Source of the DNA: Balneolaceae bacterium | GTDB lineage: Bacteria; Bacteroidota; Rhodothermia; Balneolales; Balneolaceae | Assembly (NCBI GenBank): GCA_017640665.1 | Contig: JAEPQE010000003.1 | Coordinates: 496,001-560,000, forward strand | Reading direction: 5' to 3' | Length of the DNA: 64,000 bases | Part shown: positions 58,369-64,000 of the stretch, piece by piece | Numbering within the stretch: the first letter of the stretch is position 1 | How the letters are laid out: every line of letters begins with the position of its first letter | The notes under the pieces: generated by a model | Databases searched by the model: none | The model's input: only the letters and a program-made list of their open reading frames with translations | What the model was told of the DNA's origin: nothing | Translations under genes and position numbers: made by a program

Positions 58369-58396
58369 TTGAATGAATTAAATTGTTCTACTTTTG
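58369..58396 (+). promoter_or_regulatory. trp operon promoter, Bacteroidota type
   Basis: TACTTTTG (58389-58396) matches the TAnnTTTG -7 motif of Bacteroidota promoters. TTG (58369-58371) lies 17 bases before it as a -33 element. A transcript would start near 58403, upstream of the leader ORF, with no ATG before the leader's TTG. Confidence 0.6.
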
Positions 58397-58436
58397 CGTT
58401 GCTTTTAGAAATACACCCCGCTATATTCGTTTCGTT

Positions 58437-58511
58437 TTGAAAAACAGATTCGCACATATCAACAATTGGTGGTGGCCTACAGCTAAACATAGCAGTGGGT
58501 ATTTTGTGTAA
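58437..58511 (+). CDS. trpL: trp operon leader peptide with three consecutive Trp codons
   Basis: TTG at 58437 opens a 24-codon frame ending TAA 58509-58511. Residues 11-13 are Trp-Trp-Trp, encoded by TGG at 58467, 58470 and 58473, followed by Pro. The last codons (Ser-Gly-Tyr-Phe-Val) overlap the antiterminator arm AGTGGGTA. Three tandem Trp codons before trpE are the hallmark of ribosome-mediated attenuation. No ATG and no strong Shine-Dalgarno precede it, so the exact start is uncertain, but the frame and the Trp run are clear. Confidence 0.85.
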   Translation: MKNRFAHINNWWWPTAKHSSGYFV

Positions 58512-58574
58512 CTGAATGACATAACAAGAAATTTTACATACCCACTGTTCCTATGGAAGAGTGGGTTTTTTTTT
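58494..58574 (+). promoter_or_regulatory. trp attenuator: antiterminator and intrinsic terminator
   Basis: The antiterminator pairs AGTGGGTA (58494-58501) with TACCCACT (58539-58546), strengthened by TGTAA/TTACA (58507-58511 with 58534-58538). The competing terminator pairs ACCCACT (58540-58546) and TTCC with GGAA and AGTGGGT (58560-58566), followed by a run of nine T. The two folds share the 58539-58546 strand and cannot form together. A ribosome stalled on the Trp codons leaves 58494 onward free and favours the antiterminator; one that reaches the stop codon covers it and allows termination. Confidence 0.85.
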
Positions 58575-58585
58575 GAATTACTAAT

Positions 58586-58666
58586 GCCACTAAAGCACGA
58601 AAACACTAAATGAAGATTGATGTACACAGACTTGTAAAATATTTAGTGCTTTAGAGTTTATGTGGC
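58586..58666. repeat. Imperfect inverted repeat in the trpE leader (GCCAC...GTGGC type)
   Basis: Arms at 58586-58611 and 58641-58666 pair at 20 of 26 positions, starting GCCAC and ending GTGGC, with inner CACTAAAT/ATTTAGTG. An overlapping alternative pair (CTAAAGCAC with GTGCTTTAG) is also possible. The 'GCCAC-TAAA-GCAC...' arms resemble a widespread intergenic hairpin repeat in Bacteroidota and other groups. It lies between the attenuator and the trpE start. Confidence 0.65.
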
Positions 58667-58675
58667 GAATAAAAA

Positions 58676-60136
58676 ATGGATAAACAACAATTTTTAGAGC
58701 TTAGTAAGAAATATACAGCCGTTCCGGTGTACCGAAGGTTACTGGCGGATGTACTTACACCAGTCTCTCTCTTTTTGAATATCAGAGAAGGAGCTGAGTA
58801 TCCCTTTTTACTGGAGTCGGTGGAAGGAGGAGAGCAGCTTGCTCGATATTCTTTTATTGGAAGGAATCCCTACCAAAGATTCATGTTCGATGGGTTAAAT
58901 ACGTTCCTTGAAAAAGGAGGTGTAAGGGAGGAAGTACATATTCCTTATTTCGAAGAGTTAAAGAAACTTACAACGGCTTATAGCGAGCCGTTTCTACCTG
59001 AGCTACCAAGACTAACGGGTGGTGCAGTAGGTTTTTCCGCCTATGATACCTTTCGCCTTGTTGAGCATCTGCCCGATGTACCCAATGATGATCTCAACCT
59101 GCCGGAAGCTAATTGGGCGTTTTATGATGAGATATTTGCTTTCGATCATGTGAAGCATCAGGTTGTTTTGATTAAGACTGTTTTTATTGAGGAAGTAGAG
59201 GATATTGAAAAAGCGTACGAAAATGCCCAGGCTTCTCTAGATGAAATGGAAGCTGCGGCAATGCATACTGATTATTCAAGACGTGAATTTCAGATTCATC
59301 CTGAGTCACTGAAAAGTAATATGAATCAGAAGTACTTTGAATCCATTGTAGAAAAAGGGAAGGAGTACATTTACGAAGGAGATATTTTCCAGGTAGTGTT
59401 GTCACAAAGATTCGAGGCTGATATGGAAGGAGACCCTTTTATGTTGTACAGGGCACTTCGAATGGTTAATCCATCTCCATACCTTTTTTATCTGGATTTT
59501 GATGGGTTTACACTTGTTGGTTCGTCTCCGGAAGTACTTGTGAGTGTTCAGAATAAAGAAGTCAGAGTATTGCCAATTGCAGGGACCCGACCGAGAGGGA
59601 AAACTCATGAAGAAGACCTTGAACTTGAAGAGGATTTGAAAGCCGATCCTAAAGAAGTAGCCGAGCATATTATGCTGGTTGATTTGGGCAGAAATGATCT
59701 TTCCAGAGTTTGTAAAGCTGGTACAGTAAAGATGGAAAGAAACCAGGTAATTGAACGGTACTCTCATGTAATGCACATTGTGAGTGATGTGGTTGGGCAG
59801 ATTCAGGATAATCAAACATCGGTTGATGCTTTGATGCAGTGTTTTCCGGCAGGAACAGTAAGCGGAGCACCAAAAATCAGAGCTATGGAAATCATTGATG
59901 AACTAGAACCGACCAAGCGTGGTATATATGCCGGAGCGGTTGGTTACTTCGATTTCTCCGGAAATATGGATACCTGTATCGCAATCAGAACCATGGTTGT
60001 AACGGGCAATAAGGTGTATATTCAGGCTGGGGCAGGAATCGTGGCAGATAGTGATTCTGAAAAGGAATTTGAAGAAACTCAAAACAAAGCCGGAGCGTTA
60101 GTTCAGGCATTAAGTATAGCACTAGATATTCAATGA
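58676..60136 (+). CDS. trpE: Anthranilate synthase component I
   Basis: TrpE makes anthranilate from chorismate with ammonia supplied by TrpG. The 486-residue protein has the N-terminal tryptophan-binding segment LLES-x10-S (residues about 41-55), which confers feedback inhibition, and the chorismate-binding core [47 protein letters not shown] and [10 protein letters not shown]. It is the first structural gene behind the attenuator. trpS overlaps its end by four bases. Confidence 0.97.
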
Positions 60137-61119
60137 CAAAGAAAAAAACCATTTTATCAGGTATTCAGCCCTCCGGGAAACTCCATATTGGCAATTATTT
60201 TGGTGCGATTCGGCAGCACATTGCTATGCAGGATAAAGGCGATACTTTTTACTTTATTGCTAATTATCACTCGTTGACTTCTTTAAACGATGGTAAAACT
60301 CTTTATCAAAACACCATTGATGTAACACTGGATTATCTGGCTCTGGGCTTAGACCCACAAAAGGCGACCTTTTTCGCACAGTCAGATGTGCCTCAGGTTC
60401 CTGAATTAGCCTGGATTCTTGGAACTCTCACACCCGTAAGTCTGATGGAAAAGGGAGTGTCCTATAAAGACAAAATTGCCGCCGGGCTTAAACCGAACAT
60501 CGGTTTATTTACCTATCCAATACTTCAGGCTGCTGATATTTTGATCTACCACTCTGATGTAGTTCCAGTGGGAGAAGATCAAAAACAGAATATCGAAATT
60601 TGCAGGGATCTGGCGGGAAAGTTTAACAGAGCCTACGATGGAGAATATCTGATCATACCGGAAGACCATATCGTGAAATCGGTAGCTGTAGTGCCGGGAA
60701 CAGATGGTCGAAAGATGAGCAAGAGCTACAATAATACCATCCAAATATTTGAAGAAGGTAAACCGCTCAAAAAGGTTTTGATGTCTATAGAAACAGATTC
60801 TAAAGGACTCGAAGAGGCTAAAGATCCTGATTCTGATAATGTTTTTGCACTGATTAAACTCTTTGCTGATGAAAGTAAGCAAGCTGAAATCGCTGAGAAG
60901 TATCGGGCAGGGGGCTATGGTTATGGTCACGCCAAACTGGAATTACTCGAATTAGTAGAGGAGTATTTTGCAGAAGCTCGTGAGAAGCGTAAAGAATTGG
61001 AGGGGGATCTCGATTTCGTGAAAGATGTATTAACCGAAGGCGGCAAAAAAGCCAGAGCGCGAGCTGAATCAGTAATGGAACCAATAAGAGAAGTAACGGG
61101 TATCGTGAGGAATTTCTGA
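60133..61119 (+). CDS. trpS: Tryptophanyl-tRNA synthetase
   Basis: TrpS charges tRNA-Trp. The 328-residue class I enzyme has the HIGN motif (residues 18-21) after SGIQPSGKL and the KMSKS motif (from residue 194) in GRKMSKSYNN. It overlaps trpE by four bases and trpG by one base, so it is translated within the trp operon. That position is unusual: trpS normally stands alone. Under the attenuator its expression would rise when charged tRNA-Trp falls. Confidence 0.97.
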   Translation: MTKKKTILSGIQPSGKLHIGNYFGAIRQHIAMQDKGDTFYFIANYHSLTSLNDGKTLYQNTIDVTLDYLALGLDPQKATFFAQSDVPQVPELAWILGTLTPVSLMEKGVSYKDKIAAGLKPNIGLFTYPILQAADILIYHSDVVPVGEDQKQNIEICRDLAGKFNRAYDGEYLIIPEDHIVKSVAVVPGTDGRKMSKSYNNTIQIFEEGKPLKKVLMSIETDSKGLEEAKDPDSDNVFALIKLFADESKQAEIAEKYRAGGYGYGHAKLELLELVEEYFAEAREKRKELEGDLDFVKDVLTEGGKKARARAESVMEPIREVTGIVRNF

Positions 61120-61679
61120 TGATTCTTATTATAGATAACTACGATTCATTTACTTACAACTTGGTTCATATTGTTGCCTCTGAAACGGATGACTATAAAG
61201 TGATCCGGAATGATGCGATGACCTTAGGAGAAATTAAGGAACTCAACCCTTCTAAAATACTGATTTCTCCGGGACCGGGTCGTCCACATGAAGCCGGTAT
61301 TACTGAAGAAATCATTAGGGAACTCGGTGCATCTATTCCAATTCTTGGGGTTTGCCTTGGTTACCAAGCCATTGGGGAAGTCTTTGGTGCAGAAGTGGTT
61401 TACGCACCTACCTTAATGCATGGTAAAGTGTCGAATGTGCAGCATGATGGTAAATCAATTTTCGAAGGAGTTGAAGAAAATTTTGTTGCAACCCGATATC
61501 ATTCTTTAGTATTAGATCCTGAAAGCATACCTGATGAATTGGAAATTACTGCAAGGACTGGTGAGATTGTGATGGGTGTTAGACACAAGAAATATCCAAT
61601 TGAAGGGATTCAATTCCACCCTGAAAGTATTCTTACTACAGAAGGACCAAAAATGGTTAAAAACTGGTTAAGGAAATAA
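61119..61679 (+). CDS. trpG: Anthranilate synthase component II (glutamine amidotransferase)
   Basis: The 186-residue class I amidotransferase has the nucleophile Cys79 in GVCLGYQAIGE, the PGPG segment (51-54) and the His/Glu pair in QFHPES. It supplies ammonia to TrpE. Its start overlaps the trpS stop, and trpD follows at the next base. It may also serve folate synthesis (PabA), as single TrpG/PabA enzymes do. Confidence 0.95.
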   Translation: MILIIDNYDSFTYNLVHIVASETDDYKVIRNDAMTLGEIKELNPSKILISPGPGRPHEAGITEEIIRELGASIPILGVCLGYQAIGEVFGAEVVYAPTLMHGKVSNVQHDGKSIFEGVEENFVATRYHSLVLDPESIPDELEITARTGEIVMGVRHKKYPIEGIQFHPESILTTEGPKMVKNWLRK

Positions 61680-62708
61680 ATGACGATTAAAGAAATACTA
61701 AATAAGCTGTCATTTTCAGAAGATCTGTCTCAGGTTGAAGCCGAAATTGCTATGAACCTGATTATGACCGGGGAAGTCAACTCTGAGCAGGTTGCTGCTT
61801 TTCTTACAGCAATGCGCCTGAAAGGGGAAACCATTGACGAACTAACGGCTTTTGTTCGTGTGATGAGGGAGCAGTCAATAAAAGTTAACGTAAATGTTGA
61901 TGGAGCCGTTGACTTGGTTGGAACAGGCGGAGACAAGTCAGGAACGTTTAATATCTCAACCATATCATCAATTATAGTGGCAGGAGCTGGAGTTCCGGTG
62001 ATCAAACATGGTAACCGAAGCGCTTCAAGTAAATGCGGTAGCGCGGATGTATTAGCTAAACTGGGAGCTAAGATAGAACTCGATAACAAGGCGGTTGAAA
62101 GAGTATTCAATGAAGTTGGCATGGCTTTTATGTTTGCCCCAATGTTTCACCCAGCCATGAAGTATGTAATGCCTGCTCGTCGTGCTCTTGGGTTTCGAAC
62201 CTTCTTCAATATACTCGGACCTATGAGTAATCCGGCTGGGGTGAAGCGATATGTAATCGGAGCTTTCAGTAAAGAAGTGGCTTCCAAAATGGTTAGTATT
62301 CTGGCTAACCTGGATACTGAATTTGCCTATACGTTTAATTCTCATGATGGCCTTGATGAGCTGAGTACAACCGCTCATGCAGAGGTATTTGAACTTAAAG
62401 ATAGCGTAGTGTCAAGAGCTATCACATTTGATGCTCAATCCATTGGCTTTCAAAAAGTTGGTATGGATGAGTTAATGGGGGGAGAGCCCGATGTAAATGC
62501 TGAAATATTCAATAACATCCTTGATAACAAAGCCACACGAGCTCAGAAAGAAATCATTCTATTGAACGCTACCTTTGCAATTCAGGCATCAGGGAAAGTG
62601 GAGTCATTAGTTGAGGCAAAGGAATTGGCCACTGATTGTCTCGAATCTAGCAAAGCCCGAAAACTATTCGATCAGTTTGTGGAAGCAACAAACAGTGTAG
62701 GAGCCTGA
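61680..62708 (+). CDS. trpD: Anthranilate phosphoribosyltransferase
   Basis: TrpD joins anthranilate to PRPP. The 342-residue protein has the conserved GTGGDKSGTFNIST (PRPP-binding), KHGNRSASSKCGSADVLAKLG and the LGPMSNPAG segment. It follows trpG without a gap and precedes trpC by one base. Confidence 0.97.
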   Translation: MTIKEILNKLSFSEDLSQVEAEIAMNLIMTGEVNSEQVAAFLTAMRLKGETIDELTAFVRVMREQSIKVNVNVDGAVDLVGTGGDKSGTFNISTISSIIVAGAGVPVIKHGNRSASSKCGSADVLAKLGAKIELDNKAVERVFNEVGMAFMFAPMFHPAMKYVMPARRALGFRTFFNILGPMSNPAGVKRYVIGAFSKEVASKMVSILANLDTEFAYTFNSHDGLDELSTTAHAEVFELKDSVVSRAITFDAQSIGFQKVGMDELMGGEPDVNAEIFNNILDNKATRAQKEIILLNATFAIQASGKVESLVEAKELATDCLESSKARKLFDQFVEATNSVGA

Positions 62709-62709
62709 A

Positions 62710-63525
62710 ATGGCAAATGTGCTAGAACGTATCGTTGAACAAACTACCTCAGATCTTGTCAAAAGGAAGAAAGAGATTTCATTTAATGACCTGCATTCAC
62801 TGGAAGGTTTCGAAAAAGAGCGAATCGATTTCAAAGAGGCTCTTCAGGCAGAGCGAGTATCGGTTATAGCCGAAGTGAAGAAAGCGAGTCCTTCTAAAGG
62901 AATTATCCGCGAAGATTTTAACCCTATAGATATCGCACTCAGATATGAAGACGGAGGCGCTTCAGCTATCTCTGTTTTGACAGATAAACCTTTCTTTAAA
63001 GGTGATCTGGAATACTTATCTGCTATTTCTAAACGCGTTCGACTTCCGCTGCTTCGTAAAGATTTTATTATAGATCCCTTTCAGATTAAAGAAGCTCGTG
63101 CTTTTGGAGCTGATGCCGTACTTATAATTGTAGCAATTACAGAAGGAAGCCAGTTGAACGAGTTAATAGCAGCAGCTAAGGAATTCGGTCTTTCTGCTTT
63201 GGTGGAATGTTACGATCAGGACGATTTTGATCGCCTTGATTTCTCCGAAGTAGATATTCTGGGAGTGAATAACCGCGATCTAAAGCATTTCAAAGTGGAT
63301 GTGCACCGCGGTATCTCTATTTTAAAGCAAGCTCCGGAAGGAACCGTTTTAGTTTCAGAAAGTGGAATATCCAATGGAGAAGACATCGCATTATTAAAAC
63401 GGGAAGGAATTCATTCAGCGTTGATCGGGGAACATTTTATGAGACAAACTGATCCTGGTAAAGCAGTTTCAGAATTGTTGGAACAGGGTGAAGAAGTTTA
63501 TGAAAGGAGTTTTCAGGATGGGTGA
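62710..63525 (+). CDS. trpC: Indole-3-glycerol-phosphate synthase
   Basis: TrpC closes the indole ring. The 271-residue TIM barrel has IAEVKKASPSKG near strand 1, SVLTDKPFFKGDLEYL, LLRKDFIIDPFQI, LGVNNRDLK and VSESGI in the usual order, with catalytic Lys and Glu residues in place. The zinc-ribbon gene starts within its last codons (eight-base overlap). Confidence 0.97.
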   Translation: MANVLERIVEQTTSDLVKRKKEISFNDLHSLEGFEKERIDFKEALQAERVSVIAEVKKASPSKGIIREDFNPIDIALRYEDGGASAISVLTDKPFFKGDLEYLSAISKRVRLPLLRKDFIIDPFQIKEARAFGADAVLIIVAITEGSQLNELIAAAKEFGLSALVECYDQDDFDRLDFSEVDILGVNNRDLKHFKVDVHRGISILKQAPEGTVLVSESGISNGEDIALLKREGIHSALIGEHFMRQTDPGKAVSELLEQGEEVYERSFQDG

Positions 63526-63736
63526 GTTAAAAGAGTCTGAATTTTGTTGCTCAATGATGTACGAAAATGTTTTATCAAGCTTTGATGAGAATGGAGAAAT
63601 ATTGTACGATGAAGTAGATGTAATTATGAATAAATGGGATGATGGAACCTTTGGAATTCCAATTCATGATGGAGGCACGTCTGTAATTAAGATTAATTAT
63701 TGTCCCTGGTGTGGAACAAAATTGACCAATGAATAA
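63518..63736 (+). CDS. Small zinc-ribbon-like protein (DUF6980-like) inside the trp operon
   Basis: ATG at 63518 lies ten bases after an AGGAG and gives 72 residues; a longer frame starts at 63488 inside trpC and is less likely. The protein has an N-terminal CCSMMYENV and a C-terminal CPWCGTKL, four Cys that could bind zinc, with a YDEVDVIMNKWDDG and IPIHDGGTSVIKINYCPWCG segment that resembles DUF6980. It overlaps trpC by eight bases and trpF by eight bases. Its role is unknown, and it has no known place in tryptophan synthesis. Confidence 0.7.
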   Translation: MGELKESEFCCSMMYENVLSSFDENGEILYDEVDVIMNKWDDGTFGIPIHDGGTSVIKINYCPWCGTKLTNE

Positions 63737-64000
63737 AACAAAAGTCAAAATATGTGGAATTACGAATCTGGGTGATGCCCGTTTTGCTGCCGGAGCTATG
63801 GCCGATTACCTCGGATTCATTTTCTATGAAAAAAGTCCGCGCTACATCGAACCCGGTGAAGCAGGAGCTATTATCAACTGGATTGAAGGTCCTGAGAAGG
63901 TGGGAGTGTTTGTAAATCAGCCACTGGATGATGTAAACAGAATAGCTAAAGAATCAGGCCTGGACCTTGTTCAGCTTCACGGAGATGAAACGCTGGAATA
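63729..64000 (+). CDS. trpF: Phosphoribosylanthranilate isomerase, 3' end outside the window
   Basis: The visible 90 residues start MNKTKVKICGITN with the KICGIT signature and continue with DYLGFIFYEKSPRYI and LVQLHGDE, all diagnostic for TrpF. The ATG lies inside the zinc-ribbon gene. trpB and trpA would be expected just downstream, beyond the window. Confidence 0.95.
   Translation, partial: MNKTKVKICGITNLGDARFAAGAMADYLGFIFYEKSPRYIEPGEAGAIINWIEGPEKVGVFVNQPLDDVNRIAKESGLDLVQLHGDETLE

Follow-up and report, generated by a model that had tools for sequence, protein, structure and literature searches.

The leader region and the trp operon

The window, as we call the whole 64-kb stretch of DNA that was analysed, comes from the 3.8-Mb genome of a Balneolaceae bacterium belonging to the Balneolota, a group that GTDB files under Bacteroidota. 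The nearest named relatives of its trpE are those of 'Balneolaceae bacterium isolate ih13' (92% identity) and Gracilimonas amylolytica (83% identity). The genes trpE-trpS-trpG-trpD-trpC-trpF follow one another in this order, with a small ORF between trpC and the start of trpF, and a putative attenuator lies upstream of them (Table 1). In relatives, trpS stands immediately 3' of trpE in 53 of the 53 trpE loci checked, and because it lies inside the operon the enzyme that charges the sensed tRNA would be governed by the same switch.

Table 1. Leader elements, neighbouring repeat and trp genes, with positions counted from the first nucleotide of the window
Feature	Position	Strand	Basis or remark
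-33 element TTGC, Bacteroidota-type sigma-A promoter	58399-58402	+	19-nt spacer to the -7 box
-7 element TATATTCG, TAnnTTTG type	58422-58429	+	box position relative to the leader start codon
Predicted transcript start, about +/-2 nt; 5' UTR about 3 nt	58434	+	inferred from box position
trp leader ORF, TTG start, 24 codons plus TAA (58509-58511): MKNRFAHINNWWWPTAKHSSGYFV	58437-58511	+	homologous leaders in relatives
Three tandem Trp codons (TGGTGGTGG), predicted sensor, residues 11-13	58467-58475	+	conserved Trp runs
Protector (pause) hairpin 1:2, 58475-58485 with 58490-58500	58475-58500	+	free fold; z -3.5
Strand 2, antiterminator 5' arm	58493-58502	+	10 perfect pairs with 58538-58547; 2:3 duplex z -5.3
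Strand 3, common to antiterminator and terminator	58538-58547	+	folds and duplex tests
Intrinsic terminator 3:4, stem 58540-58566, nine T at 58566-58574	58540-58574	+	fold and covariation
Imperfect palindrome, 81 nt, 26-nt arms, 77% complementary, between terminator and trpE, outside the switch	58586-58666	+	absent from L004
trpE, anthranilate synthase component I	58676-60136	+	TIGR00564 above cut-off
trpS, tryptophanyl-tRNA synthetase, overlaps the end of trpE	60133-61119	+	TIGR00233 above cut-off
trpG	61119-61679	+	TIGR00566 above cut-off
trpD	61680-62708	+	TIGR01245 above cut-off
trpC	62710-63525	+	NF001377 above cut-off
trpF start, continues past the window edge	63729-64000	+	MNKTKVKICGITNLGDARFAAG..., read from sequence alone

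A first-pass annotation of this DNA had described a 24-codon leader with WWW at residues 11-13, and the ORF is found as described (58437-58511), its start being TTG where relatives have ATG. The annotation made its reading depend on conservation of the Trp codons and of the alternative pairing in relatives, and as far as sequence can tell the comparisons show such conservation. Among 59 distinct Balneolales trpE upstream regions, the window's included, 55 have a Trp-run leader with at least two Trp codons. Three or four consecutive Trp codons are present in 50 of these 55 aligned leaders, again counting the window, and two in the rest, so the run is not a product of chance; the variants are WW (L010, L111, L115 and L132), WRW (L095) and WWWW (L128 and L131). 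The four regions with no Trp leader comprise three from a single genus with small genomes, g5 (L097, L099 and L101), which have kept a promoter-like stretch and a terminator and lost the Trp leader, and L118, which has kept the terminator and carries a possible short ORF without Trp, MDKSYYPLTEATN, where the leader would stand.

A covariance model (R1), built on an alignment (A1) of 34 Balneolaceae leaders, recovers the element from 97 of 117 Balneolales genomes; when only genomes with a completeness of 90% or more and a contamination of 5% or less are counted, the figure is 77 of 84. The model found no element in any of the five g5 genomes or in either 1.5-Mb g21 genome. Taken together, these sequence comparisons strongly support the mechanism of a complete and widely conserved trp attenuator.

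As secondary matches, the same model returned leader peptides with runs of Cys and Met codons in other Balneolaceae genomes (L204-L209, L213, L214 and L217), for example MNTQHFNSAICYMMHTCCAMMCCMCMPKGSGAKCSIKF and MNTQNQIHNFSMIPTTMCVMCMCCCMCMPRGSGTDMSK. Each is followed by an intrinsic terminator and precedes a sulfurtransferase-like gene, and at the loci with enough sequence a sulfite-reductase-like gene comes next, both genes being named from their translations. They resemble transcription attenuators that would sense cysteine (or methionine) and govern sulfur assimilation.

The palindrome between the terminator and trpE is missing from the closest relative (L004, 92% identical). Five more 24-nt copies resembling its arms, with 2-3 mismatches, occur elsewhere in the genome against none in the control, from which we conclude that it is probably a small dispersed repeat.

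Alternative pairings in the leader RNA

Folded alone, the terminator with its nine T has a free energy of -17.1 kcal/mol (z -4.5), and its stem is supported by covariation: in alignment A1 (34 sequences) 95.2% of cells are paired and 52 are double-change cells, a result reached by 0 of 500 shuffles, and sliding the arms destroys the signal. The antiterminator that had been drawn between 58494-58501 and 58539-58546 turns out to be the inner 8 of 10 perfect pairs joining 58493-58502 with 58538-58547. Strand 3 takes part in both structures, so the antiterminator and terminator states are mutually exclusive, in agreement with the earlier claim that a shared strand forces the choice. The promoter, leader, antiterminator and terminator had together been called a full set; all four are present, but that set left out the 1:2 protector hairpin (58475-58485 with 58490-58500). 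An unconstrained fold of the whole leader forms this hairpin together with the terminator, and the combination of 1:2 with 3:4 is the state expected when the leader is not translated. Across the 55 leaders the protector hairpin has a mean z of -2.0, with z < -1 in 42; its register is not the same in all species, and some give a weak z.

Pairing of strands 2 and 3 called for a different comparison. Within the Balneolaceae, 2:3 covariation was not above that of shuffles (69 of 500), the core being almost invariant there, with one pair that varies among UA, UG and CG. For this reason we compared instead the two architectures that occur in the order, in which strand 2 either reads CAGTGGG and lies upstream of the stop codon or reads CTGAAAGCGG and lies at the stop codon. 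The mean 2:3 duplex energy is -14.9 kcal/mol for A2xA3 and -11.6 kcal/mol for B2xB3, whereas the crossed combinations A2xB3 and B2xA3 reach -10.9 and -8.0 kcal/mol. Judged by these energies, strands 2 and 3 change in concert between the architectures. Measured against shuffled strand-2 regions, the 2:3 duplex has z < -2 in 44 of 55 species.

The spacing of these strands relative to the reading frame also fits ribosome-mediated control. The front edge of a stalled ribosome lies about 12-13 nt past the start of the A-site codon. Counted from the first nucleotide of the codon, the strand 2 core in the window begins 26 nt from the first Trp codon and 20 nt from the third, and the distance from the first Trp codon to strand 2 is 20-29 nt in most Balneolaceae. 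This geometry fits a ribosome stalled on the Trp codons that would leave strand 2 beyond its front edge and hold strand 1 inside its footprint, much as the first-pass annotation had placed the antiterminator's 5' arm just beyond the stalled ribosome. It likewise fits a ribosome with the stop codon (58509-58511) in its A site whose footprint would cover strand 2. In the second architecture the stop codon stands at the start of strand 2, and the consequence for ribosome masking is identical.

Promoter position and spread of the element

A generic sigma-70 and terminator scan detected neither the Bacteroidota promoter nor the 11-pair terminator, and a purpose-made Bacteroidota promoter score was used in place of the sigma-70 scan. 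By this score the promoter that the first-pass annotation had recognized as of Bacteroidota type (TTGC at 58399-58402, 19 nt, TATATTCG at 58422-58429) is the top-scoring site of its type on the + strand of the 64-kb window. In 53 of the 55 aligned leaders 19 nt separate the -33 element TTG(C/A) from the -7 box, and the -7 box ends 3-8 nt upstream of the leader start codon in 52; L095 and L111 also fit this distance with a more upstream in-frame ATG, which gives 54 of 55. For comparison, of 369 ATGs taken at random from the window, 8 show a similar promoter score and spacing, and only 2 of its 52 long ORFs have an abutting promoter at a candidate start.

Transcript starts were predicted by applying the position of the -7 box in Flavobacterium psychrophilum, -12 to -5 (PMC9723704). 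In the window this places the start 3 nt ahead of the start codon, and in the others from about 1 base inside it to 4 nt before it, so that promoter position predicts a start at or within a few nucleotides of the start codon in 54 of 55 Balneolales leaders. A start downstream of the leader, which would have told against the earlier reading, is not what the promoter suggests, as the only strong promoter in the region predicts a start at the leader start codon. Given a -7 box 3-8 nt from the start codon and a constant 19-nt spacer, the leader mRNA should be leaderless, with a 5' UTR of about 0-4 nt, in nearly every Balneolales species. A -7 box this near the start codon leaves almost no space for a Shine-Dalgarno site, and no Shine-Dalgarno-like site was found in 53 of the 55 aligned leaders.

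Strict promoter-plus-ATG patterns gave two matches in the 3.8-Mb genome, about the level of the reversed-pattern control, and this exact type of abutting promoter is thus no general habit of the genome. Both matches lie away from real gene starts, one of them preceding a ClpC-like gene.

Further loci were drawn from class and phylum samples, and the labels Rhodothermales and Flavobacteriia-like that we use for these genomes are inferences from kinship and sequence. Most of the trpE upstream regions of the sampled Rhodothermales and other Bacteroidota also have a Trp-run leader, and an intrinsic terminator is present in 33 of the 33 such leader regions examined. A strong -7 box ends 3-9 nt before the leader start in 19 of the 33 and a weaker box in 8 more, against a background of 23 strong boxes at 854 ATGs; at three Flavobacteriaceae-like loci the box stands 18-20 nt before the leader ATG. 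The 2:3 pairing is clear in many Rhodothermales and is unsupported by a simple duplex test in the Flavobacteriia-like loci and the f23 group, for which we therefore claim only a Trp leader, a terminator and, mostly, an abutting promoter, and not the four-strand model.

A set of loci in the wider sample (L155-L161 and L175-L185) has Trp-run leaders and terminators before trpE, many of them without a clear 2:3 pairing in the simple duplex test, and the switching mechanism there may be different.

Proposed mechanism and relation to known systems

We consider it very probable that the element is a trp operon attenuator of the classical kind, in which a translating ribosome controls transcription, and that the mRNA of its leader peptide is leaderless. 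From the arrangement described above we infer where the transcript starts, that translation is leaderless, that ribosomes stall and that the operon responds to tryptophan. With RNA polymerase starting at about 58434, the nascent RNA would have hardly any sequence ahead of the leader start codon, and a ribosome would load at the RNA 5' end without a Shine-Dalgarno site. With charged tRNA-Trp plentiful, this ribosome would pass WWW, reach the stop codon and cover strand 2, whereupon strand 3 would pair with strand 4 and transcription would end at the T tract. With charged tRNA-Trp scarce, it would stall on WWW and cover strand 1, leaving 2:3 to pair, the terminator blocked and trpE-trpS-trpG-trpD-trpC-trpF transcribed. 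In an untranslated leader, 1:2 and 3:4 would form and transcription would stop.

A rival to the leaderless part of this scheme is that the attenuator is real and its transcript starts further upstream, the TAnnTTCG near the start codon being coincidental or a secondary promoter. The box 18-20 nt before the ATG at the three Flavobacteriaceae-like loci shows that the spacing is no fixed requirement, and in several species the reading frame is open upstream of the leader start. We nevertheless regard an upstream start as improbable, since the 19-nt spacer and the short distance from box to start codon hold in 53 and 52 of the 55 leaders, Shine-Dalgarno-like sites are wanting in 53, and no other site of this kind on the window's + strand scores as high. 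Far less probable is an ordinary or constitutive premature terminator, or one controlled by a protein or small RNA, with the Trp codons incidental. The genus g5, in which terminator and promoter-like stretch persist without a Trp leader, indicates that the terminator can stand alone. In almost all other genera, however, Trp runs, the four-Trp variants included, occur at a constant distance from the start codon and always before trpE, and the stop codon and strand 2 hold a fixed relation to them. Control of trp genes in Firmicutes usually relies on a T-box or a TRAP-like RNA-binding protein, which is the one argument for a terminator governed here by a tRNA-sensing T-box or such a protein. We give this practically no credence: Rfam families, trp leader and T-box among them, gave no match at gathering score in the window, a search of the region with E up to 10 returned only chance-level matches (best E 1.3), and by eye the leader has no apparent tandem GAG/UAG triplets.

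A separate question concerns the strength of the switch in this particular strain. Leaderless initiation depends strongly on AUG, which is the usual though not absolute start of a leaderless mRNA and is absent in the window, where the leader begins with TTG (58437-58439). Of the 55 aligned leaders 53 start with ATG and one with GTG, and in both same-genus genomes (L004/G002 and L086/G001) the start is ATG. A TTG start is expected to be weak for a leaderless mRNA; it may be a base error, or the window strain may translate its leader less and terminate more often by default. It is conceivable, if rather unlikely, that the switch is decaying or weakened in this strain, the change from ATG to TTG lowering leader translation and shifting the operon towards default termination. 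Against such decay, WWW and all the pairing elements are intact in the window and identical or nearly identical to those of L004. The predicted leaderless start, the TTG codon and the spread of the element across the order and the wider phylum had all been missing from the first-pass annotation.

Beyond the Balneolales, we see about even chances for a broader reading of the leaderless attenuator, in which it is old and widely kept in the Bacteroidota in the wide (GTDB) sense and its leader was selected to be leaderless with an abutting promoter. Shine-Dalgarno sites are little used in this phylum, and the ribosome would then engage the nascent RNA at its very first bases, keeping pace with RNA polymerase; in the Balneolales trpS would be controlled along with the pathway, the trpE-trpS arrangement putting the sensor's own charging enzyme under the switch. 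Leaderless mRNAs make up 5.5% in F. psychrophilum (PMC9723704), and about 3.7% of mRNAs in Bacteroides thetaiotaomicron have a 5' UTR below 10 nt (PMC7366714). They are thus rare in these two species of the phylum (about 3.7-5.5%), yet the trp leader is predicted to be leaderless across nearly the whole order and in many distant Bacteroidota, and it is therefore well suited for asking whether leaderless initiation helps to couple the first ribosome to RNA polymerase. The element is now delimited in full and aligned across the order, its predicted transcript start can be tested, and the mutants to make are clear.

Most of what is understood about leader-peptide attenuation comes from Proteobacteria and Actinobacteria, and the literature found for Bacteroidota in the wide sense holds only hints. 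In a 2010 survey such systems were known, before its own Firmicutes case, only in Proteobacteria and Actinobacteria (PMC2965389). A transcriptome study of Flavobacterium speaks of 'strong clues' that amino-acid operons are preceded by attenuators of the leader-peptide type (PMC9723704). In the open-access literature on Bacteroidota we found only this short statement on F. psychrophilum, and subscription journals may hold earlier predictions. The first-pass remark that the mechanism is little described in this group is fair by these two papers.

Among the closest known systems is the trpL-trpEDCBA operon of Escherichia coli, which likewise has Trp codons in a short leader, a 1:2 protector, a 2:3 antiterminator and a 3:4 terminator, and a stop codon so placed that the terminating ribosome masks strand 2. 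The Balneolaceae element differs from it in having three tandem Trp codons in place of two, a promoter of Bacteroidota type, a 5' UTR predicted to measure about 3 nt and trpS within the operon, and in lacking a Shine-Dalgarno site and any Rfam family match at Rfam thresholds.

Leaderless Trp leaders have precedents elsewhere. Streptomyces lividans trpL1 (MFAHSTRNWWWTAHPAAH) is a leaderless WWW leader before trpE with an intrinsic terminator (PMC8079986); in this actinobacterial case trpE stands alone and trpS has a Trp leader of its own, whereas here trpS lies within the trpE operon. In the trpL-trpE(G) system of Sinorhizobium meliloti the transcript starts at the trpL ATG, leaderless as predicted here, and trpE is controlled by transcription attenuation (PMC7298713); the leader there has 14 amino acids, and both the RNA that is released and the peptide have further roles in trans. 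The structured 5' regions of amino-acid operons in F. psychrophilum come from the same wider phylum (PMC9723704), attenuation being given there as a brief statement whereas the present element is delimited strand by strand with its conservation. With Streptomyces and Sinorhizobium already furnishing leaderless Trp leaders, the Balneolales case joins a known kind in a poorly described lineage, and its most informative new point is the promoter that abuts the leader start across the order.
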